Part shown: piece by piece, positions 4,695-53,765 of the stretch
How the letters are laid out: every line of letters begins with the position of its first letter
Position numbering within the stretch: position 1 is the stretch's first letter
Assembly: GCF_949628265.1 (NCBI RefSeq)
Contig: NC_088787.1
Span: 19,768,501-19,832,500 of the forward strand
Reading direction: 5' to 3'
Source of the DNA: Cloeon dipterum
Lineage: Eukaryota > Arthropoda > Insecta > Ephemeroptera > Baetidae
Length of the DNA: 64,000 bases
The notes under the pieces: generated by a model
What the model was told of the DNA's origin: nothing
Database searches by the model: none
Seen by the model: the letters and a program-made list of their open reading frames with translations, nothing else
Program-made: the position numbers and the translations under genes

Positions 4695-4922
4695 TTATTT
4701 AATTTCATCAGAAACCAAAGTTAGGGTTAGACTATTAATGAAAAGGCCAAAAATACTTCAAAAATTTATTATGTAGTATGTACTTCTTAAATATTAGAAT
4801 TTGAATTTACCTAATTTTCTTTTGAATTGTTAATTTTTTCTAATTAAAGGATTTATGGAAGGAGTAAAACAACAATAATTAACCGTAAAAACATTTCATC
4901 TTCTCAATAAAATGGAACACAT
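4695..4922. repeat. Left flank copy of segmental duplication (partner 12495-12716)
   Basis: This segment matches 12495-12716 closely, in the same orientation and with the same order of landmarks: ATTAATGAARAGGCC, TTATGTAG, TCTTAAATATTAGAAT, TTTATGGAAGGA and ATGGAACACAT. In the second position the match runs straight into the duplicated kinase unit. Here it is separated from that unit by 3.2 kb holding the minisatellite gene. It therefore marks the left edge of the tandem duplication described at 8150-17060. Confidence 0.85.
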
Positions 4923-5147
4923 TCTTTTATTGCCGCCTGTTTTCTAGTATCAATCACATAATCAATTATAACAACGGCAATCAATGCGCGACAACTAAAT
5001 TTAGCACACTTAATCACAAAACGAATGAAATTTCGTACTTTACCATAGAATAACTTAAAAAGTCTATCATCTACACTCTTAATTTCATCTAACTCATCTA
5101 ACTTATGTATATATATTATATACAAATATAAACACACACTGTATACA

Positions 5148-6541
5148 TCAAGGTGAAACATCTAACATCTCACTTCCCCCACGGAGTTTTAGCACTACCC
5201 AGCCAGTTTCGAGCTCTGCTTCCTGTTCATCCTTCAGCTGCAGGACGTCCTCAACCTTTGGTTGCTGGACGCCCTCAACCTTTGGTTGCTGGACGCCCTC
5301 AACCTTGGGCTGCTGGACGCCCTCAACCTTTGGCTGCTGGACGCCCTCAACCTTGGGCCGCTGGACACCCTCAACCTTGGGCTGCAGAACGCCGTCAACC
5401 TTGGGCTGCAGAACGCCTTCAACCTTGGGCTGCAGAACGCCCTCAACCTTGGGCTGCAGAACGCCCTCAACCTTGGGCTGCAGAACGCCCTCAACCTTGG
5501 GCTGCAGAACGCCCTCAACCTTTGGCTGCAGAACGCCCTCAACCTTTGGCTGCAGAACGCCCTCAACCTTTGGCTCCTGGACATCCTCAACCTTTGGTTG
5601 CTGGACGCCTTTAACCTTTGGCTGCTGGACGCCCTCAACCTTTGGCTGCTGGACGCCCTCAACCTTGGGCTGCTGGACGCCCTCAACCTTGGGCTGCTGG
5701 ACGCCCTCAACCTTTGGCTGCTGGACGCCCGCAACCTTTGGCTGCTGGACGCCCTCAACCTTGGGCTGCTGGACGTTCTCAACCTTGGGCTGCAGAACGC
5801 CCTCAACCTTGGGCTGCAGAACACCCTCAACCTTGGGCTGCAGAACGCCCTCAACCTTGGGCTGCAGAACGCCCTCAACCTTTGGCTGCAGAACGCCCTC
5901 AACCTTTGGCTGCTGGACGCCCTCAACCTTGGGCTGCAGGACGTCCTCAACCTTTGGTTGCTGGACGCCCTCAACCTTTGGCTGCTGGACGCCCTCAACT
6001 TGGGCTGGGTGACGCCCTCAACCTTGGGCTGCAGAACGCCCTCAACCTTTGGCTGCTGGACGCCCTCAACCTTTGGCTGCTGGACGCCCTCAACCTTTGG
6101 TTGCTGGACGCCCTCAACCTTGGGCTGCTGGACGTCCTCAACCTTAGGTTGCTGGACGCCCTCAACCTTTGGCTGCTGGACGCCCTCAACCTTGGGCTGC
6201 TGGACGTCCTCAACCTTGGGCTGCTGGACGTCCTCAACCTTTGGCTGCTGGACGCCTTCAACCTTGGGCTGCTGGACGTCCTCATCCCGCAGCGGTGTGA
6301 GTGGCCAGGAGTCAGCCGCGCTGAGGCCGTTACTCCCGAAGATGGCATCTTCCCTGTTCCGCAACAAGTGTGGCATATTCAACCATTGACAATGCCTCAC
6401 AATGTCCCAACACTCTTCCTGTTGTACTAATTGGTCGTAGTTGGGTTTCAGTAATATTTGCTTGTTCAAGCGCATCTCATTGACTTGCCTCCCGGGGCTA
6501 GCCAATAAATCGGCCATTGGTCGCACGCTGATAATGGGCAT
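5148..6541 (-). CDS. Unrecognised protein with about 44 octapeptide repeats encoded by a 24-bp minisatellite; frame slips once
   Basis: I do not recognise this gene. An exon begins after a good acceptor (polypyrimidine then CAG at 6550-6552) at 6549. The first ATG at 6541 opens about 80 non-repetitive residues (MPIISVRPMADLLASPGRQV, later YDQLVQQEECWDIVRHCQW and MPHLLRNREDAIFG). Then comes an octapeptide array, VEGVQQPK and variants (VEDVQQPK, VEGVLQPK). After about 12 units one base is missing near 5999-6000, which moves the rest of the array into a basic frame (LRASSSQR, LRAFCSPR) that stops at 5234-5236. Past the array the original frame is open again and encodes an ordinary-looking tail (LKDEQEAELETGWVVLKLRG, then SEMLDVSP) ending at 5148. 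The span from ATG to this stop is 1394 nt, one short of 465 codons. A poly(A)-type AATAAA (minus strand) lies at 4926-4931. Upstream exons may exist. A real frameshift, a polymorphism and an assembly error in the repeat all remain possible. Confidence 0.5.
5238..6286. repeat. 24-bp coding minisatellite, about 44 units
   Basis: Head-to-tail units of 24 bp, consensus on the plus strand TGCTGGACGCCC followed by TCAACCTTNGGC. There are two main variants: CTGCTGGAC (minus strand reads Gln-Gln) and CTGCAGAAC (Leu-Gln, contains a PstI site). The variants occur in blocks. The variant unit CTGCAGGACGTCC followed by a TTTGGTTG unit occurs at 5238 and again at 5934, exactly 29 units apart, which points to duplication of a whole block. 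Only one unit, near 5995-6012, departs from 24 bp. The consensus is free of stop codons in all three plus frames and in two of the three minus frames. Confidence 0.95.
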
Positions 6542-6549
6542 GGTGCGAG

Positions 6550-7157
6550 CTGTGAACAAAAACAAATGGATATTTATTTTAATTTGAATGATGTTTAAAT
6601 TTTTATGGGGATCGAATCGGACGCCCGCAGGTATTTTTTTACCATAGACGTTATCCTCATCTTCCTCATTTGCGGACCGAATTTTTCAGTAAAAATAAAT
6701 TGTTATAACCCCCCCCCCCCGTAAGTGAATTAGGAACTCATTTTAAATAAAGTATCTGAATTGGTCTCTAATTACTAATGAATCTAAAATGATGTGTTTA
6801 TTTGAAGTATCTGCCAGTCAAGATGCGCTAGCTAATTTTGGGTCACGTGGGCAGCCGCCGTGACTTTGGCTAAGTTGGCAGTGCAGGAGAAAAAATTGTC
6901 TTTAGCCCATCAAGTCGTCCCAAACACTCAAAATTTACTCTTAAAATTTTCACAGCCGCCGTTTTAACGGTCATTGAAAAGGCACCTCTCGCCTCTACTG
7001 GGACCTATTGATGTTTGTGCGCGGGTAAAAGGAACTCCCATATATAATGACTATGAGCGACTACTACTTGGGACGATTTCGTTTTCCATTTTCGTGCTCT
7101 GAAATGTTAAATGCTGTTCTTTATTGCAAGGTACAAGGAAATATATTATTGAAAGGT
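6550..7157. other. Region upstream of the minisatellite gene; poly-C run
   Basis: Intron or upstream sequence of the minus-strand minisatellite gene. It contains a run of ten C at about 6711-6720. No coding exon can be supported, although an upstream exon is implied by the acceptor at 6550-6552. Confidence 0.35.
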
Positions 7158-8321: not shown

Positions 8322-8785
8322 CTAGAGTGCTTATAACGAGAGTGAGATGGCTAGGCCGACCGACGCGACACTGTGGCCTGCGCACTGCCGCTTCCCTATC
8401 TCTCCCCATGTTAAAATGCGCGCACGCGGTTGGCGCTACAGCTAAATTCATGAAGCCACCCGCGGACTTATTGGTGTCAATCGAACGAGCACGAGTCGTT
8501 TTATCATATAACTCGGAACCGAGCCTGAAAACAAAAGCGCTTTCAAAGGATTCCACCGCTGAAATCTGCCCATTTCCAGTCAACAAGTAGTGTATTTCAC
8601 TTGTTGTCTGGTTGCCATGGTGATGCGTGCTTCGCCGACAGCCGCTGGCGCTCGGGTGCGATCGTCGCTGTCGGAGCTCGCAGCGAAATGGTTAGATTTC
8701 AGCGGTGGAATTCTCGAAAGCGCCACAGTCGCATCGGTCGGCCTAGCCATCTCACTCTCGTTATAAGCACTCTACTGCCGCTGCT
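8322..8785. mobile_element. Foldback (inverted-repeat) element inserted in kinase unit A
   Basis: The outer arms at about 8322-8376 and 8722-8785 are complementary; each starts TAGAGTGCTTATAACG when read inward. Inner arms at about 8537-8578 and 8685-8722 are also complementary, around a core reading TTTCAGCGGTGGAAT. The left half has about 160 bp without a partner. The corresponding place in unit B (about 12853) lacks all of this, so an empty site is available for comparison. The flanks repeat imperfectly as ACTGCTACTGCC and ACTGCCGCTGCT, consistent with a target duplication. No transposase is present, so it is a non-autonomous element of undetermined superfamily. Confidence 0.75.
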
Positions 8786-9068
8786 TTCTTCCTGTCTTCC
8801 TCTCCCCTCAACAAAACTAACCCATATATTGAGTATCGATTTTTGAGAGTATAATTATATTGCATCGTAAGCAATTCAAAATAACAAAAATATTTTTTGA
8901 CCACAATAGGTGTTGTTTTTAACCCTCTAACTAAAACGCAGTATATTTACTAGCCTATACTGATTTACTAAGAAGGAATAAAAGGTCTGAAAACTGGTCA
9001 TCAACTTTCGTTACAAATAATTAGTTTTTATTTTGCCTAATTAATAAAGTCGCGTCCAGAGAGAATTT

Positions 9069-11656
9069 TCAAATCATGCCAAAGTCAGCCGCGAGTCTGG
9101 TCAGGTCGGCTAGCCGCTTCCTGCCCTCAGGGTCAGTGACGTCTTTGAACTGAGTGATATCGACGAGCGGCACAGGCTCGTTACCGTCGATTCTGTCCAG
9201 GTCCTGTACATCCTCGGTCTCAACCACGGAGAGCAGCACTAGCTCCAGCGCTGATGAAAAGCCCAGCCGGCCATTGACGCGCCACTGCTCCAGCAGCTGC
9301 TCCCAACTCAAAGGGCACTCGTCTAAGCCCAGTTCTTTGACGCTCCTGCATAGCACCTGAAAAGCAGGGAATTTAATTTTGATTTAATTTACACGATAAT
9401 GCTTATTGAGATTGAGGCATAAAATTATTGAAGGTTAAAACTAAAAAATGAAAAATTCCAATTAATAATTAAAATTGTAAGAAGAGAATTTTAGTAAAGC
9501 TCAATATGTTTCATTCATTATTAGTAATTTTTACATAGATTAACAACAATTAATTAATCTTGAAAAGTTTCCAGGTGCTCAGGAAAAAATAGAAAATACT
9601 ATTATAACATTTTTCTTCCATAGAACAGCAATATTATTATTTTTAACTGCTGAGTTTAATTTTAAATCCACGTTTTCAACAGTTTAAATGAATAAATTAA
9701 CTTACCAAAATTAAGAACATATTCTTCCATAATTTCCATTATAATTTTTTTTAAAATATTTTACAATAATTAATCTCCCTTTTTTGCTGATAAATTTATC
9801 TAAAAGCAAAAATTGTAATTAAGTTGATACCAAAACAAGGGTGATTTGGGGATGAGAGCAATTAAATTTCACGATTTTCTGGTGGTAACAAATGGAAAAC
9901 TAAAAATCTCACTTGGTAATAATCGTCGAGAATGGCAAGCATGCCTCCAGCATCAGCCCGCTGCTCTTCAGTGGTGCAGGAGAAGATAAAGAGACTAACG
10001 TCGGTCATGGGCGAGGCGTGTCGCATAATTTGGAAGTCGATCATCATGATCTCGTCCTGCCGGCCGAACAGGAAGTTGGTGGACCAGGCATCGCCGTGGT
10101 TGATTACCGCGGGCCCGACGTGCCGCATCGCGTCGCACATGTTTTCAAACAGCTTTTTTGCATCGGGACCGAACTCGAGGAACTTGCGCCAATAGTCGGT
10201 GCCTTGCAGTTCATCCTGCAGAGCACGCTTCCAGATGTTGTACAGCTTGAACATGTAGGCCTCGTAAAAAGGCGCGAGCGGTTGAGAAAACCACGGCTCT
10301 GGAAAGGCTTCGGCCGTCGACGCTAACTTTTCTGGCTCGAGACGCAATAGGCCGTACGAGAGGGCGTGGAAGCGGGCAAGGGTGTGCAGCAGCCCTTGCC
10401 TCTGCGCCACCGTGGGACCGGACACGCGGTCCGTCATCTCGTAGCCCAGCGTCTTCAGGTCCTGGAAAACGAGGAAGTCGTTTTCGCCGTCGCTTACCGC
10501 ATGGTAGCACCTGCCAAATGAATGACACCGATTCAATTTTCTGGAGACGAGGTTTTTAAGATGAATTTAATAATAAGTTATGAATATAAAAATTACTCAG
10601 ATGAAATATATTACTTCGGGTTTAAGAGAGTTTGATGTTAGAAAAATTAAAATTTGAAAGAAAATTTAATTACTAAGCATTTTCTACGGTTTTAATTTTC
10701 AAACGGCAGGACCGAACTGACCGAAGCTGTGAGTCGAAAATTCTCAAATAGGCCAAATATTCCAATTAAATTTATTATTTCCACTAGGGGGGTTAAGTTA
10801 AAACCGTAATATGTATATGAAGAGAAAACTTATATAGGATTCTATATACATTTTAGTTAGTTATTTGGTGAATTTATTAGGAGTTAGTTTATATAATAAT
10901 TTCTATACAGGTATAATGTACAAAAATTAAGGACTGAATAAAAGCTCTTAATTTTAGAATTTGCCAGATTCTCGAAAAATGAATCATTTTCGCTTGATTT
11001 TGATTCATTTCGTTACAATCAATCCAAAGGCGTGCGAATATTGATGAAAAATACCCTAAATAAAGAAATAAATAAATCGTGTTTTTACAATAAAAGGAGT
11101 CATAATGATCGCCGCTTAGTTACATGCAAATTTTACTCAGAAATTTCAACAACAATTAATTGAAGAATATATTATAGATGGGATAGTAAATATCTTTTTC
11201 TGATTTTTCACAGCACCTAATCACTTAAATAAAAAAATCAACACCAGCAATTCATCATTTTTCTCAATCTGACCTGGCGATGGGCATGTAGGTGTCCACA
11301 GCGACCTTTTCAACGCCGCGCTGCTTGAGCTCAAACTCTCGAAACAAGGGTGCCACTTTGGTGAAAAAGAAGACCTCCTTTTCGAAGTAGTAGTCGCAGC
11401 GGAAGGTCTTACGCCTCACAACATTCTCCGGCATGCCCTTGGCAATCAGACTGAGCTCGGAGCCGTCCGACAGCTGCACCCTGATCCTGTAGACGACGCC
11501 CAGGTAGCCGGTGCCCTTGTCGGCACCCAGCTCCACCGAGTGGCCCACGACCTTGAGCCCGGCAGGCCTGCCGTCAGCCTCCAGGGCGCGCCGCACCGCA
11601 TCCTCGAGCACCTCGATGGTGAACAGCTTGGACACAGAGCCCAACGTCAGCGACAT
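9069..11656 (-). CDS. Ecdysteroid-kinase-like protein, copy A (3 exons, 422 aa)
   Basis: Exons 11656-11274, 10510-9913 and 9356-9069 join in phase (383+598+288 nt). It belongs to the EcKL/CHK-like family (PF02958), cytosolic relatives of aminoglycoside phosphotransferases and choline kinases. Characterised insect members phosphorylate ecdysteroids; others are implicated in detoxification. Visible family marks are the nucleotide-site hinge FLVFQDLK (about residues 140-147), the catalytic Brenner motif HGDAWSTNFLF (266-276, with the expected His, Asp and Asn) and the metal-binding DFQ (286-288). The length is normal for the family. The start is the ATG at 11656, which follows a promoter region conserved with copy B. 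A poly(A)-type AATAAA lies about 35 nt past the stop. All expected motifs are present, so it looks functional; the substrate cannot be told from sequence. Confidence 0.93.
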
Positions 11657-12494
11657 CCTTCCTGCGTGAGGTTCACAGCCCGGCTGAATGATCCTTCATG
11701 CCGACAATCAGATAAAACCAGAGCAGAGAGGCACTCGAGGGCCGGCTGCTGGAGTCGATTTGTTGTTGATTTTTGGCTCTGGAGTGCCAGCTGACATCTC
11801 GGTTTGGAGCCGAACACTAAAATATACTGCGCGGTTTCGCATATTATATCTTATCGCAGCGGGCAATATTTGCGAATAATTATATGGAAGTAAATAATAC
11901 GTGGTCACTGATATAATTATTATATAGAATCAATGTGCTACTGCGGTTTTATCTCAGATTTATTCCAGTGTTTTCTTAAAAGCAGATTCAATCTGGAGAC
12001 TGCCAAATTGAAAAAAAATGAATAAAACAATATAAAGCTAAAATACAATTATTGAGAAATAAAGACAGATATACAATAAGAGTGATTCAAAAACTGTATG
12101 ATAAAATGTGATTTTATTTTCGTTTGTTTGGTCTCTTTCATGTCAGTAACAAAAAAGGAGAAAAATAATGAGGGAAAAACGTGATAAGAAATAAAAATGC
12201 CCAGACTAAAAATTTCATCATAAAGAACCTCGTAAACACCTAGCGATAGTTGCGCTGGGAGGGAAACTGTGCCGCCGAGCAGTTGTTTGTTGCGGGGTTG
12301 CATGAATTATTGATCAACAGCGAGGGCTCTGAATTTTTGACGATTTTTTTTAGTACCGTTTGTACGTATTTGAAAACATCACAAGAGATTGTTTTTGAAA
12401 ACCTTTTTCATCTATTTTTTTAATTCATTGAAGGATTCGTTCATGCATGAACTTTTTTGTTTTCTTGAATAATTGATTTTTTTATTTAATTAGA

Positions 12495-12716
12495 TCAATT
12501 TTATCACAAACCGAATTTAAGGTTATATTATTAATGAAGAGGCCAAAATTACTACAAAAATGCATTATTATGTAGTTCTTAAATATTAGAATATGAATTT
12601 ACCTAATTTTTTTAAATTGTTATTTTTTTCTAATTAAAGGGATTTATGGAAGGAATAAAACAACAAAATTTGAGTGTAAAAATGTTTCATTTTCTGAAGA
12701 AAATAATGGAACACAT
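12495..12716. repeat. Flank copy of segmental duplication (partner 4695-4922)
   Basis: This copy matches 4695-4922 in the same orientation and ends at the shared ATGGAACACAT. It is joined directly to kinase unit B, whereas the first copy is separated from unit A by about 3.2 kb. It forms the junction between the two duplicated units. Confidence 0.85.
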
Positions 12717-13177
12717 GGCAATGAAGGATGAAAAAGGACAGCCGAAATGTTTAGCGCGGAGTCGGGAAAGACTGAGCAAGAAGTAACTGACTATATATAT
12801 GAGCTATGCTGTGATCTCCTTGCTACACTGTTCTCCTTTATGAATGAGCTACTGCCACTTTACTGCCGCTGCTTGTGCTCTTCTTCCTGGCTTCCTCTCC
12901 TCTCAATACAAAACTAACCCATATATTGGCTATCGATTTTTGAGAGTATAATTATATCGCATCGTAAGCATCATTAAAAATGACAAAATTATTTTTTGAC
13001 CACAAGGTGTTGTTTTTAACCCTCTAACTAAAACGCAGTATATTTACTGGCCTAGACTGATTTACTTAAAAGGAGTAAAAGGTCCGAAAACTGGTCATCA
13101 ATTTTCGTTACAAATAATTTGTTTTTATTTTGCCTAATTAATAAAGTATATCACTTGGTCGCGTCCAGAGAGAATTT

Positions 13178-16100
13178 TCAAATCATGCCAAAGTCAGCCG
13201 CGAGTCTGGTCAGGTCGGCTAGCCGCTTCCTGCCCTCAGGGTCAGAGACGTCTTTGAACTGAGTGATATCGACGAGTGGCACAGGTTCGTTACCGTCGAT
13301 TCTGTCCAGGTCCTGTACATCCTCGGTCTCAACCACGGAGAGCAGCACCAGCTCCAATGCCGACGAAAAGCCCAGCTGGCCATTGACGCGCCACTGCTCC
13401 AGCAGCTGCTCCCAACTCAAAGGGCACTCGTCCAAGCCCAGTTCTTTGACGCTCCTGCATAGCACCTGAAAAGCAGGGAATTTAATTTTGATTTAATTTA
13501 CACGATAATGCTTATTGAGATTGAGGCATAAAATTATTGAAGGTTAAAACTAAAAAATGAAAAATTCCAACTATAAAATAATTAAAATTGTAAGGGAATT
13601 TTAGTATATAATAATTTGTAAATAGATGATGAACAACAATTAATTAATCTTGAAAATTTTCCCGGTGTTGAGGAAAAAATAAAAAATATGGTATTATCAC
13701 ATTTTTCTTCTATAGAACAGCAATATTTTTATTTTTAAACTGAGTTGATTTTTAAATCCACTTTTTAAACTACTGTATTCAATTTAGATATTTTTTTTAA
13801 ATTAATAAAAAACTTACCGAAATTAAGAACACATTCTTTCACAATCTCCATTTTTAAAAAAAAAATTTAAATGTAACGATAATAAATAATCACTTTTTTT
13901 CCTAATAAATTCATCTAAAAGCAAAAATTGTAATAGGGTGATGCCAAAACAAGGGTGGTTTGGGGATGAAAGAAATTAAATTACCGATTTTCTGGTGGTA
14001 GCGCAAATGCAAAATTAAAAATCTCACTTGGTAATAATCGTCGAGAATGGCAAGCACGCCTCCAGCATCAGCCCGCTGTTCTTCGGTGGTGCAGGAGAAG
14101 ATAAAGATACTGACGTCGGTCATGGGCGAGGCGTGTCGCAAAATTTGGAAGTCGATCATCATGATCTCGTCCTGCTGGCCGAACAGGAAGTTGGTGGACC
14201 AGGCATCGCCGTGGTTGATCACCGCGGGCCCGATGTGCCGCTTCGAGTCGCACATGTTTTCAAACAGCTTTTTTGCATCAGGACCGAACTCGAGGAACTT
14301 GCGCCAATAGTCGGTGCCTTGCAGTTCATCCTGCAGAGCACGCTTCCAGATGTTGTACAGCTTGAACATGTAGTCCTCGTAAATAGGTGCGAGAAGCGGT
14401 TCAGAAAACCATGTCTCTGGAATGGCTTCGGCCACCGGCGTGAACTCTTCTGGCTCGAGACCCAGTAGGCCGTAGGAGAGGGCGTGGAAGCGGGCAAGGG
14501 TGTGCAGCAGCCCTCGCCTCTGCGCTACCGTGGGACCGGACACGCGGTCCGTCATCTCGTAGCCCAGCGTCTTCAGGTCCTGGAAAACGAGGAAGTCGTT
14601 TTCGCCGTCGCTTACCGCATGGTAGCACCTGCCAAATGAATGACACCGATTCAATTTTCTGGAGACGAGGTTTTTTAGGCTGAATTTAATAATAAGTTGA
14701 AGAAAAAAAAATACTCAAATGAAATATTACTTCGGGTTTGATGTTAGAAAAATTAAAATTTGAAAGAAAATTCAATTATTAAGCATTTTTTACGGTTTAA
14801 ACTTTTCAAACGGCAGGACTGGAGCTGCGAGTTGAAAATTCTCAAATAGGCCAAATATTCAAATTAATTTTATTATGTTCACTAAGTGAAATCTATAATA
14901 TCGTTAAGCGTCCGGAAAAAAGTATATATGATATATTGTAATATATGCGAAGAAAACTTGCAGGACTCTATACGTTTTAGTAATTTAGTGATTTTTTAGC
15001 AGTTTAAATAATAATCTTGTGGCGCCTTCTCGCCACTGCTGTCCTAGTAGTAACTACTATAGTTTGCATTTTAAACTGTATCGCCATGTGGCAGTGTAAA
15101 GGTGTGCAATAAGCTTTGCACCCTTACTACCCCTTCTCCCCCACTTCAGCAGTCGAAACGAAATGTTCTCTCTCCGGCAAGGATGAGATTTAGTGCGAGA
15201 AAATTCTATAAAATTTGATCTCAAATTATTCAGACCCGCACTACTTACGGGGTAAGAATTTATCTAACTTTATAATAATTGTAAATGTTTGAAATTGATA
15301 TTTTCGTGTTTTTAATTATTAATTGAATTGTGATTTTAATTATTTGTACAATTTCACAGTCCTAGTCTTGATCTTGATTCCTGATCTTGAACTCTAAATA
15401 AACAAAATGATTTCTACCAAAAGACGCATTTCTGTCACGGCTCCTCAAACCCACAATCTCTATACAATGTACAAAAATTTAATCAGGACTGAATAAAGTT
15501 TAATTTCAGAATTTGCCAAATTTCTAAAAAAAAAATGAAAAATCTAAGTTTTTGTTAAATCATTTTTGCTTGATTTTGATTCCTTATTTCGTTACAATCT
15601 ATCAAATGGTGTGCGAATATTAATGTAAAATACACTAAATTAAGTGAAATAAATCGTGATTTTACAATAAGGAGTCAGTGATCGCTGCTTGGTTAACACG
15701 CAAAATTTTCTCAGAAGTTTCAACGACAATTATTAATAATTGAAGAATATTTTGGAGCAAAAGCAAAATAATTTTCTGATTTTTTTTGTTCACCTGTACA
15801 CTGAAATAAAAAGGTCAACACCAGCAATTCATTATTTTTCTCAATCTGACCTGGCGATGGGTAAGAAGGTGTTCATAGCGACCTTTTCGACGCCGCGCTG
15901 CTTGAGCTCAAACTCTCGAAACATGGGTGCCACTTTGGTGAAAAAGAAGACCTCCTTTTTGAAGTAGTAGTTGCAGCGGAAGGTCTTGCGCCTCACAACA
16001 TTCTCCGGCATGCCCTTGGCAATCAGACTGAGCTCGGAGCCGTCCGACAGCTGCACCCTGATCCTGTAGACGACGCCCAGGTAGCCGGTGCCCTTGTCGG

Positions 16101-16233
16101 CGCCCAGCTCCACCGAGTGGCCCACGACCTTGAGCCCGGCAGGCCTGCCGTCAGCTTCCAGGGCGCGCCGCACCACCTCCTCGAACACCTCGATGGTGAA
16201 CAGCTTGGACACGGAGCCCAACGTCAGCGCCAT
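13178..16233 (-). CDS. Ecdysteroid-kinase-like protein, copy B (3 exons, 423 aa)
   Basis: Exons 16233-15851, 14628-14028 and 13465-13178 join in phase (383+601+288 nt), with intron positions and phases identical to copy A. It is a tandem paralogue of the EcKL/CHK-like family and keeps the catalytic HGDAWSTNFLF and DFQ motifs. It differs from A mainly in the middle of exon 2, around the segment that reads EEFTPVAEAIPETWFSEPLL here, which includes one extra residue, and at scattered sites in exon 1. The C-terminal exon is nearly unchanged. Clustering of changes in one surface-like segment between otherwise similar enzymes could reflect substrate divergence, but that is inference. The promoter and 3' end are duplicated with it, so both genes may be similarly expressed. 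Confidence 0.93.
15018..15455. mobile_element. Solo LTR of an LTR retrotransposon, in intron 1 of kinase copy B
   Basis: A 438-bp insertion, absent at the matching place in copy A. It starts TGTGGCGCC, ends CCCACA, and is flanked by a 4-bp direct repeat ATCT (15014-15017 and 15456-15459). A TATA-like CTATAAAA at about 15207 and an AATAAA at about 15398 fit LTR organisation. No internal coding part is present, as expected after recombination between two LTRs. The family (Ty3/gypsy or BEL-like) cannot be fixed. It is younger than the segmental duplication. Confidence 0.8.
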
Positions 16234-17060
16234 ACTTCCTGCGTGAGGTTGACAGCTCTGCTGAATGGTCCTTCATGCTATATAATCAGTATAATCAGAT
16301 AAAGCCAGCAGAGGGGCACTCCAGGGCCGGCTGCTGGAGTCGATTAAATTTGTTTGTGGATTTTTGGCTCTGGAATGGCAGCTGACATCTCGGTTTGGAG
16401 TCGAATACTAAAACATACTGCGCGGTTTCGCATTATATATCATATCGAAGCGGGCCATATTTGCGAATATTTATATGGAAGTAAAGAATACGTGGTCACT
16501 GCGATATAATTATATAGAATCAATGTGCTACTGCGGCTTTTTATCTCAGATTTATTCCAGTGTTTTCTTAAAAGCAGATTCAATCTGGAGGCTGCCAAAT
16601 AGAAAAAAATGAATGAAACAATAAAGCTAAAAGTACAATTATTGAGAAAAAAAGACATAACTACATATACAATAGTGATTCATAAAATGGTAAAATATTT
16701 TTTTTATTTTTGTTTGTTTTGTCTCTTTTATGTCAGTAACAAACATGAGGGAAAAACGTGATAAGAAATAAAATAGCCCAGACTAAAATATACGTCACAA
16801 AACCCTTGCGCTAGGAGGAAAACTGTGCCGCCGTGCAGTTGTTTGTTGCGGGGTTGCATGAATTAATGCTCAACTGAGCGCGTGTATTTTTGACGATTTT
16901 TTTGTGTTCCGTTTGTAAAGCATACATACTTGATCTTGGTACATCACATGAGATTGTTTTTGGTAACCTTTTTCAACTATTTTTTAATTAATTGAAGGAT
17001 TCGTTCATGTATGACCATTTTTGTATGTTTTTGTTTTCTTGGAAGAATTGATTTTTTATT

Positions 17061-17614
17061 TAATTTAAGGAAAAACATGTTTATTTTACAATTTACAAAT
17101 AAAGAGACAGGTAAGCAAGACTGACGTTTATCACATCTGATTTAAAAGCACTATAACAATTTTATTTTAAAATTATGTATCAAATGCAATTGTATGAGGT
17201 CAAATAATTTTGAATTAGAACGTTCTGATTTGCTAACGATGCATGCAGTTGCAACAAGACTCCTTTTTAGACGATTTTAGCAGAAGAGACGATTTTAAAG
17301 TGAGGGTGTTAAATTGTTTCATTCGTGACGATTGCGGGAGCTGTAAGAAAAAAGAGATTATTGTCTAAAATTCACAGCAATATTATAACATGACGTTATA
17401 TTCATGGTTGATTTGGCTCAAGACAAACAAGACTGTATTTCATTTTCAATAAGTTAATTAAAAGACCTGAATGGTAAAAATGCTGTAAATAAGTGAAATG
17501 GACGGATTCACGCACCAAAATTTTACCGTTTATTGTAAATTAAATAATATGAAAATAAGAGTATTAAGAGCTGCCTTACAGCTAAGAAGCATAAAGTGAT
17601 TCTTAGATTTGAAA
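17061..17614. other. Intergenic DNA, no gene seen
   Basis: AT-rich DNA between the end of kinase unit B and a dispersed repeat. I see no open frame, RNA gene or repeat in it. Confidence 0.4.
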
Positions 17615-18003
17615 TTGTCTGGACTGTTTTTGGGATCTGTTACTGGCTGTTTAATGTCAGAGATGGCAGAAAGTGGTTAAGTTACTCGCAATGCTCAAAT
17701 AGTTCACCCGGCTGGGAGGCGCACCGGCGCTGACTCGCCACTTGCAGGTTTTCGCACTTTTTCCAGCGGCTTAAGGGATAAAAAAAATAATGTCTGTCGA
17801 CTCTAGCGTTTCAATAAAATACCTCGGTACGAGAAGGCGACTCTAGCGTTTCAATAAAAGACCTCGGTACGAGAAGGCGAAATGATGACCACATTGGGCA
17901 CAAGCTCCTCTGCGGCCATTCGGGTCCAATGTTGTCCGCTTGGTATTAAAAGATAGGCAGCTCATAGCCCACACGGGATGTGCTGAGCAGAGGTTCTAAA
18001 CAT
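17615..18003. repeat. Dispersed repeat, copy 1 (partner 53440-53765), with internal 40-bp tandem duplication
   Basis: It shares with 53440-53765, in the same orientation, the blocks TGTCAGAGATGGCA, AAGTGGTTAAGTT, GGCTGGGAGGCGCACCGGCG, TTTCCAGCGGCTT and TTGGGCACAAGCT, and an ending GTGCTGNGCAGAG. Copy 1 has a perfect-spaced 40-bp unit twice (17798-17837 and 17838-17877), differing at a single base, which copy 2 lacks. The overall size and the A-rich end of copy 2 suggest a short interspersed or MITE-like element, but no RNA polymerase III box or terminal repeat is convincing. Confidence 0.65.
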
Positions 18004-50389: not shown

Positions 50390-51300
50390 AAATCAATATG
50401 GAAGGATCCATATTAAGTGAACCCCTGTTTGGCAAGTGGTCTTCAGATCTTGATGAAATTCGGTGGAGATGATGCCCTAGGGAACCTAAGTTAAACCCTA
50501 AAATATTAGGTCAAAATTCCAAAAATTGTTCATTTTACAGGGGTTCAAAGTTTGAGATTTTTGAAAAAGGTGATGTTTTCGGCGATTTTTAACTTGGACT
50601 CTGTTTATAGTAAACACAAAAATTAGGTATCCAAAATATTTTACGTTTGATGCCAAACAACTTTCCCACGATGACCAACTTCGTAGGTCAAAGGTCAAGG
50701 TCACTAAATTGGGGTCAAACTTTTCAAAAAAATCCCACATACCCAAGTACATAAAATTTGGGAAATTCAAAATAGCCAAAATGTGCCTCATATCCATGGT
50801 AACAACATATAAAAAATTGGCGATGCGTTTTTTTCGTTTTCGAGATATTTTGAATTGAGTGTTTAAAATCGATGTTTTCCGGGTCTTCTGATCATAAATA
50901 AAAACACGTTTTCCGCTTAATCTCAGCTTCTATGGGTCCGATTTACAAAAACCGCACACCGTTTGATACGTAATGACCTCCCCTAGGTAATGCAAGTGAT
51001 CATAAGGGTGCCCACCCCCTTCAAACCCTTAACCACCCCCTGAAAATCCGAAAAAAATATTTTTTCATATTTTTAATCTCTATCTCGATAAATTAAGCGT
51101 GACACCAATCAAGTATGTTCCAAAATAGTTACAATAATAAATATTATTATTTTCTTTGTACAGTAAACCTTCAAAAAAATAAAGGGTTTAACTTAGGTTC
51201 CCTAGGGCATCACCTCCACCGAATTTCATCAAGATCTGAAGACCACTTGCCAAACAGGGGTTCACTTAATATGGATCCTTCCATATATTTTTGGTATTTT
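50390..51300. mobile_element. Foldback element, copy 2 (relative at 21600-22410)
   Basis: The left arm (about 50390-50505) and right arm (about 51180-51300) are near-perfect inverted copies. Both read AATATGGAAGGATCC, AAGTGAACCCCTGTTTGGCA, AGTGGTCTTCAGATCTTGAT, GAAATTCGGTGGAG and CCTAGGGAACCTAAGTTAAA in the same sense. The interior contains TTCATTTTACAGGGGTTCAA, matching the inner arm of the element in MFSD8 intron 1. About 680 bp of AT-rich DNA without a gene separates the arms. The arms match better than in copy 1, so this copy is likely younger. Confidence 0.75.
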
Positions 51301-52806: not shown

Positions 52807-53247
52807 ATGTGGATCAGAGTGAGGAGCATTGCAGAGCTGCTGCCTGCACCCACCATCCAGCAGGACGAGGAGTTGGCACATCTTGGCCACCAACTACAAA
52901 ATTTATGGCATCAAGAGGATGCCATCGAGTCTGCCATCGAGGCATTAAAAGAGACGTGTAACGACACGCCACTCCTTCACGCCGCAGCTTTGCTTTGCTC
53001 GGTTGAGGTGGTTGAGCGCCTCCTCGAACTCGGCCTCAACGTGCACAGCCGAGATCCAGCAAATGGCACGACTCTGCTCCATATGGCTGCATTAAACTCG
53101 CAGCACGGAGTAAAAATGGTCCAAATCCTCTTAGGACTCGGCCTTTCCAAGCTGGCTGAAGACGACTGTGGCAAGAAGCCAATCGACTTTGCTAACGAGG
53201 GCCAAAACGAGTCAGTTTATGAGCTGTTGAGAGTGTTGAGCTCATAG
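52807..53247 (+). CDS. Small ankyrin-repeat protein (terminal exon, 146 aa)
   Basis: The exon starts at 52789 after a good acceptor (TTGTCCACAG). The first ATG in frame, at 52807, gives 146 residues. An N-terminal helical, acidic part (MWIRVRSIAELLPAPTIQQD and on) is followed by about three ankyrin repeats: NDTPLLHAAALLCSVEVVER with LLELGLNVHSRD (about 52-83), GTTLLHMAALNSQHGVKMVQ with ILLGLGLS (87-114) and a partial CGKKPIDFANEGQNESVYEL (121-140). The TPLHxAA-type signature and GADVN-like turns are clear. Ankyrin repeats bind proteins; no enzyme domain is attached and I cannot name an orthologue. The reading frame is open to the acceptor (TKPAVN before the Met), so an upstream coding exon is possible. 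Confidence 0.75.
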   Translation: MWIRVRSIAELLPAPTIQQDEELAHLGHQLQNLWHQEDAIESAIEALKETCNDTPLLHAAALLCSVEVVERLLELGLNVHSRDPANGTTLLHMAALNSQHGVKMVQILLGLGLSKLAEDDCGKKPIDFANEGQNESVYELLRVLSS

Positions 53248-53439: not shown

Positions 53440-53765
53440 TCCCGGGATCTAATGCTGGCTACCCAATGTCAGAGATGGCAAAAAGTGGTTAAGTTTAGTA
53501 ACTCAAAATGCTCAAATAACACAACGGGCTGGGAGGCGCACCGGCGCCGTCTCGACACTTGCTGGTTTGCGCACCTTTCCAGCGGCTTTATGGACAAATA
53601 TGTCTCGGTGTGGGGAGGCGAAAAGACGGCCACATATTGGGCACAAGCTTAATTGCTTCGGGCCACTCGAGCACCCGTGTTACCCGCTCGCTCAGCGGTG
53701 TTATTGGGACCTGGCACCCAGTGAGCTCGCCCACGGAATTAGTGCTGTGCAGAGTTTCTAAAAAA
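53440..53765. repeat. Dispersed repeat, copy 2 (partner 17615-18003)
   Basis: Same-orientation relative of 17615-18003, sharing GTCAGAGATGGCA, GGCTGGGAGGCGCACCGGCG, TTTCCAGCGGCTT and TTGGGCACAAGCT. It ends in an A-rich tail at 53760-53780, like an element made from RNA. It lacks the 40-bp tandem duplication of copy 1. Short open frames inside it (53344-53652 and others) are not genes. Confidence 0.65.

Follow-up and report, generated by a model that had tools for sequence, protein, structure and literature searches.

The window, by which we mean the whole 64,000-nucleotide stretch of Cloeon dipterum DNA analysed here (C2:19768501-19832500), comes from a genome of 190.1 Mb in 10 contigs and contains no N. 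It includes two exons with similarity to ecdysteroid-kinase-like genes (Pfam EcKL, E 2.6e-37 and 9.8e-10) and another with similarity to NAA25 (PDB chain, E 7.7e-36); ARAGORN and Rfam (gathering scores), run over the whole window, gave no matches. Bacterial scans, which are unsuited to this genome, returned 3 promoters versus 2.8 in shuffles and 0 terminators versus 3.4. The EcKL genes lie within a tandem duplication on the minus strand (8782-12491 and 12876-17065), made of two pieces with 89% and 85% DNA identity. A segment of about 220 bp that is perhaps a mobile element occurs at 4701-4922 and, 84% identical, at 12497-12716, one copy starting beside the AATAAA listed below and the other beside the EcKL duplication. 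Two 104-bp stretches about 680 bp apart (50396-50499 and 51183-51286) are inverted copies with 99% identity and may be the terminal inverted repeats of a mobile element.

The array gene

On the minus strand, between an ATG at 6541 and a TGA at 5148, lies what we refer to as the array gene, with the following features.

6550-6642, minus strand: possible 5' UTR intron of 93 nt, predicted by eye (GT at 6642-6641, AG at 6551-6550)
6287-6541, minus strand: non-repeated N-terminal part, 85 aa, beginning MPIISVRPMADLLASPGRQV, from sequence and translation
6023-6286, minus strand: 11 full 24-bp units before the slip, cut by hand, in frame VEGVQQPK (unit 1 is DEDVQQPK)
6000-6022, minus strand: slip unit, cut by hand, 23 bp, with CAG changed to ACC and the 3' end one base short
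5232-5999, minus strand: 32 full units after the slip, read as assembled as LRASSSQR/LRAFCSPR, 254 residues, pI 12.0
5234-5236, minus strand: stop codon (TGA) of the frame as assembled, inside the last unit, from translation
5148-5231, minus strand: C-terminal tail DEQEAELETGWVVLKLRGGSEMLDVSP, 27 residues, plus stop, in the VEGVQQPK frame, unreached as assembled
4926-4931, minus strand: AATAAA about 220 nt past the tail's stop, a possible polyadenylation signal

The exon that follows the possible 5' UTR intron would restart 8 nt upstream of the ATG. Tandem Repeats Finder places the array at 5237-6284, with a period of 24, 43.7 copies, 91% matches and a score of 1529, versus 159 for the runner-up among its 7 rows in the window; cut by hand, the array holds 44 units, namely 11 full ones, one of 23 bp and 32 full ones. 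A 500-base query from the start of the gene found at least 6 matches in the genome, every one of them inside the array gene and its array. At 24 bp the unit contains whole codons, and we infer that the array is a coding tandem repeat; a bumblebee study describes coding repeats whose unit length is divisible by three (PMC6286909).

The span from ATG to TGA is 1394 bases long and leaves a remainder of 2 on division by 3, so that it is one base short of whole codons, as the original prediction, made from the letters of the DNA, had stated. The shortage also lies where it had been placed, near 5999-6000, since the frame departs from VEGVQQPK at the AAG/GTT boundary 6000/5999. When the sequence on each side of the slip was translated as a separate piece, the N-terminal part, the 12 octapeptides before the slip and the tail proved to have VEGVQQPK as their common frame, which agrees with the earlier description, the tail being 27 residues long. 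The 32 units after the slip, read alone in the other frame, give mostly VEGVQQPK/VEGVLQPK and then the tail. As assembled, an indel that is not a multiple of 3 shifts these later units into another open frame for 254 residues; a new stop follows at 5236-5234 in the last unit, and the tail at 5231-5148 is lost. The frame that begins at ATG 6541 encodes 435 aa with a pI of 11.7. This product had been called half neutral and half basic. The basic half is borne out by the 254 post-slip residues (pI 12.0, predicted charge about +63 at pH 7), and "neutral" is nearly right: the N-terminal 85 aa have a pI of 6.7, and the 12 pre-slip octapeptides (96 residues) have a pI of 4.7 and a charge of about -5.

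Six-frame translation of the three common unit variants left five frames without a stop, as predicted, and put 1 stop per unit in the third forward frame. That an array is open in most frames is alone no evidence for a gene, and the 27-codon open tail, taken alone, is weak evidence. We note that the opposite strand of the array (window 5262-6389, plus strand) is open for 375 aa of LLDALNLG-type repeats, as expected from the unit.

The N-terminal motif and possible relatives

The array gene had been described as an orphan, and this description does not stand, because its N-terminal motif recurs in a gene 91 kb away, here called L008, and perhaps in an ankyrin-repeat gene within the window. The N-termini of both resemble that of the array gene.

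L008 1501-1887, plus strand: gene in the same genome (C2:19865967), 128 aa, N-terminus MIRVRPLEQLLANPGRQ
52807-53247, plus strand: ankyrin-repeat gene, 146 aa, starting MWIRVRSIAELLPAP (Pfam Ank_4, E 7.6e-11)

A genome-wide search with the N-terminal part of the array gene gave a weak match to L008 (E 0.63), and direct alignment of the two found 18 of 49 residues identical (E 2e-7, for a single comparison). A 17-residue motif close to the start of L008 (IxVRxxxxLL), chosen post hoc from this alignment, scores 59 at the array gene versus best scores of 24-27 in six base-shuffled windows that served as controls. The 17 aligned codons encode 11 identical residues, of which 10 are specified by different codons, and the 20 nucleotide differences are distributed 5/2/13 over codon positions 1, 2 and 3. 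The motif looks, from this pattern, to have been kept as protein by selection. L008 and the array gene share both the motif and an acceptor-like site just upstream of the ATG; L008 differs in that its 128 aa hold no repeat array, and it has no convincing similarity to the array gene past about residue 50 and no match in Pfam up to E 0.1. Queried with the L008 motif, the start of the ankyrin gene scores 29, versus 24-27 in the shuffles and 25 at the next-best, unrelated site of the window; on its sequence it is perhaps a weak relative, of doubtful membership. About 200 bp past this gene lies one copy of a dispersed repeat of about 150 bp (53444-53598; the other copy, 81% identical, is at 17632-17782).

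An acceptor-like cacag precedes the ATG by 8 bases in the array gene, by 18 in the ankyrin gene and by 13 in L008, and these sites, together with the N-terminal motif, support a real gene start at 6541. It is possible that the three genes form a local family that has a common start module and differing C-terminal parts. The same observations bear on whether there is a gene here at all. A minisatellite that is open by chance in most frames could account for common units that are stop-free in five of six frames, but it would leave unexplained the L008-like motif, in which differences fall mainly at third positions, the acceptor-like sites ahead of all three ATGs and the pattern of repeat variants described below, and we regard the absence of a gene as extremely improbable.

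Searches with other parts of the array gene, or with the N-terminal part against other collections, gave little. The N-terminal part, taken with the next two residues, was considered as Spaetzle (E 0.064) and as APC_N_CC (E 0.18), both of which fall below the Pfam cut-off, and its single match in PDB (E 1.1) was dropped. The tail region (5148-5240) has no match in Pfam up to E 1, a scan of viral contigs with the N-terminal part gave pattern matches at 11 places and no relatives, and AlphaFold, run on the N-terminal 87 aa without relatives, returned a mean pLDDT of 43.

Which frame shaped the repeats

Variation among the units points to a time when the VEGVQQPK frame was read through the whole array. 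We define a shared variant as a difference from the unit consensus that is present in at least 2 of the 43 complete units, and there are 7 of these. Read as VEGVQQPK, 5 of the 7 leave the amino acid unchanged; the third forward frame has 2 such synonymous variants and the basic frame has none. With an expected synonymous fraction of 0.22-0.30, a count of 5 of 7 has P 0.008 to 0.017, depending on the weight given to transitions. The contrast is weaker when all types of variant are weighted equally (7/17 synonymous in VEGVQQPK, 3/17 in the basic frame, 6/17 in the third). Before the slip, 5/8 variant types are synonymous in VEGVQQPK and 0/8 in the basic frame (third-position test for VEGVQQPK, P 0.09), and after it the figures are 6/15 and 3/15 (P 0.20). 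These counts suggest that VEGVQQPK was the frame in use along the whole array as it grew. Support for this is moderate, given the small number of units and their origin from one another by duplication. Because synonymous changes predominate among the shared variants in VEGVQQPK and are absent in the basic frame, the slip would be either young or artefactual. The suggestion that the slip offers a route to a new protein consequently finds little support, and a functional new basic protein is a possibility of that standing.

If, on the other hand, the slip were old and fixed, the basic LRASSSQR/LRAFCSPR part would be a translated and maintained domain, and the gene a fusion of the conserved N-terminal motif, VEGVQQPK repeats and a retained new Arg/Ser-rich repeat domain. 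The basic frame is indeed open for 254 residues, though the unit makes such openness easy, and the private changes lean the same way. There are 13 of these, from which we left out 3 in the slip unit, 3 in the first and last units and 1 before the slip (synonymous in VEGVQQPK). The 6 that were kept, all after the slip, include none that is synonymous in VEGVQQPK and 3 that are synonymous in the basic frame, and they differ from the shared variants with P 0.021 (VEGVQQPK) and 0.070 (basic) by Fisher's test. They would fit a slip of some age, but six changes are too few to carry the claim, and the counts alone are not significant (P 0.16-0.22 for 0/6 without constraint, 0.15 to 0.24 for 3/6). With 0/7 shared variants synonymous in the basic frame and a slip unit that is unique, we think an old, fixed slip improbable, and the same holds for the fusion with a retained basic domain. 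Unit types D, F and G are not confined to one side of the slip (they make up 5/11 units before it and 16/32 after it), and among runs of unit types only three-unit ones (JGG, GGG) recur across it, which is too little evidence of block duplication for dating.

The slip unit

The slip unit is distinguished by more than its length. It carries 3 adjacent substitutions (CAG to ACC) that are absent from all other units, so that the clustered substitutions reported for it are confirmed and private to it. Taking the 13 private changes and the deletion together, four or more events fell within 14 bp in 0.7% of 100,000 random placements. Such a cluster beside a lost base favours one complex mutation over a single miscounted base. 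The unit is present once in the array, from which it follows that any growth of the array since the slip has taken place without copying it.

The alternative is that the true gene keeps a single frame throughout and that the slip is a fault of assembly or consensus calling, the array being repetitive and rich in GC. This reading accords with shared variants that follow the VEGVQQPK frame and with a conserved N-terminal motif, and coding VNTRs are described as difficult to genotype from short reads (PMC9379575; PMC5843638). One of the same sources reports that long reads resolve coding VNTR arrays (PMC5843638), which speaks the other way. So does the finding that the lost base is accompanied by 3 adjacent substitutions. 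The usual homopolymer miscount comes without adjacent substitutions; a local consensus fault can, however, resemble the cluster of changes seen here. We note also that the window is free of N and that three exons of the EcKL copies align unbroken (130/130, 216/224 with a one-residue gap, and 95/95 residues) with no frame break, though neither observation is a test of a tandem array. On balance we lean towards a real slip and hold an assembly error to be the less probable account, albeit one to be taken seriously.

Finally, the tail might still be made if the frame were restored at the level of RNA, either through splicing inside the array or through a ribosomal frameshift in the slip unit. Inspected by eye, the unit joints (AAG/GTTGAG) resemble a weak splice donor and the units hold CAG trinucleotides. 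A canonical frameshift heptamer has the form X XXY YYZ, and splice acceptors are pyrimidine-rich; by eye, the junction CAG CCC AAG TTG has no such heptamer and the units have no pyrimidine-rich acceptor. Restoration of this kind is, in our judgement, very unlikely.

Discussion

We favour the reading, to which we assign a probability of about one half, that this is a protein-coding gene with an array built in the VEGVQQPK frame, and that the sequenced haplotype carries a young complex mutation that makes it a damaged or segregating allele. Such a gene would have a short N-terminal motif that is conserved, then 44 octapeptides encoded by a minisatellite, and a short acidic tail; over its full length the array would have grown and been maintained in the VEGVQQPK frame, which was presumably read throughout in the past. 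In the sequenced haplotype, a single young complex mutation in one unit would have substituted 3 adjacent bases and removed one. With no stop in the basic frame of the unit, translation would run on past the slip; the last 32 units would be read in the basic frame, the native tail would be cut off and translation would end in the last unit. We suppose the array gene to be expressed, in which case the product would be 435 aa long, with 181 slightly acidic residues followed by 254 residues of Arg/Ser-rich repeats. Such a product is most likely that of a damaged or segregating allele rather than a new functional protein, and its basic part probably has no selected role. The original prediction had offered an allele or an assembly error as further readings of the slip, and both are likelier than its route to a new protein.

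The prediction had also regarded a repeat that tolerates changes of frame as an unusual route to a new protein. Tandem repeats that take up frame shifts and turn Arg-rich are already in print (PMC12871928), and the same anatomy is found in human MUC1 and CEL. In ADTKD-MUC1, insertion of a C in one VNTR unit leads to a stop shortly past the VNTR and to a frameshift neoprotein without the native C-terminal domains (PMC5843638), and a second report describes staining of the frameshifted protein in kidney tissue (PMC7248079). The likeness to the array gene is a one-base indel in one unit, with the later units shifted and a stop near the end of the array. The differences are that the MUC1 change is an insertion in a run of seven C, whereas here a base is lost along with substitutions, and that MUC1 is a human mucin with a product demonstrated by staining and a 60-bp unit, against 24 bp in the array gene. 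Homology between the two is not expected. MUC1 mRNA is also said to be translated in an alternate frame, as MUC1-ARF.

CEL offers a second counterpart, in which natural single-base deletions, located in different units of a 33-bp coding VNTR (DEL1, DEL4, DEL9 and DEL13), produce aberrant tails (PMC8692231). In the cultured-cell results given in that source, DEL1 and DEL4 reduced secretion and increased aggregation and ER stress, and DEL9 and DEL13 had no significant effect on secretion, aggregation or ER stress (PMC8692231). As in the array gene, a single-base deletion in one coding unit alters the tail downstream; unlike it, CEL is a human lipase that has a catalytic domain and an 11-aa unit. 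Across 50 proteomes, Osmanli et al. (2025) report a higher arginine content in tandem repeats whose frame is shifted, and the possibility that new functions arise in this way; the shifted sequences described there were generated by script, whereas the shift in the array gene is in an assembled sequence (PMC12871928). We found no closer precedent for the slip among the matches listed in the literature, which is no proof of absence. Judged by this comparison, the array gene appears to be a further example of the MUC1 and CEL anatomy and not a new kind.

If the slip proves to be an assembly error, the case is a useful caution: where several frames of an array are open, a wrong base count can escape gene finders. 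If it were fixed and the basic part retained, a new repeat domain would have been born from one frame slip in a minisatellite. If the slip is real, it adds to the human disease genes a natural example of a frame slip that runs on through a long coding array. The array would itself hold the record of which frame was under selection, so that a small number of further individuals could serve to test how old the slip is.
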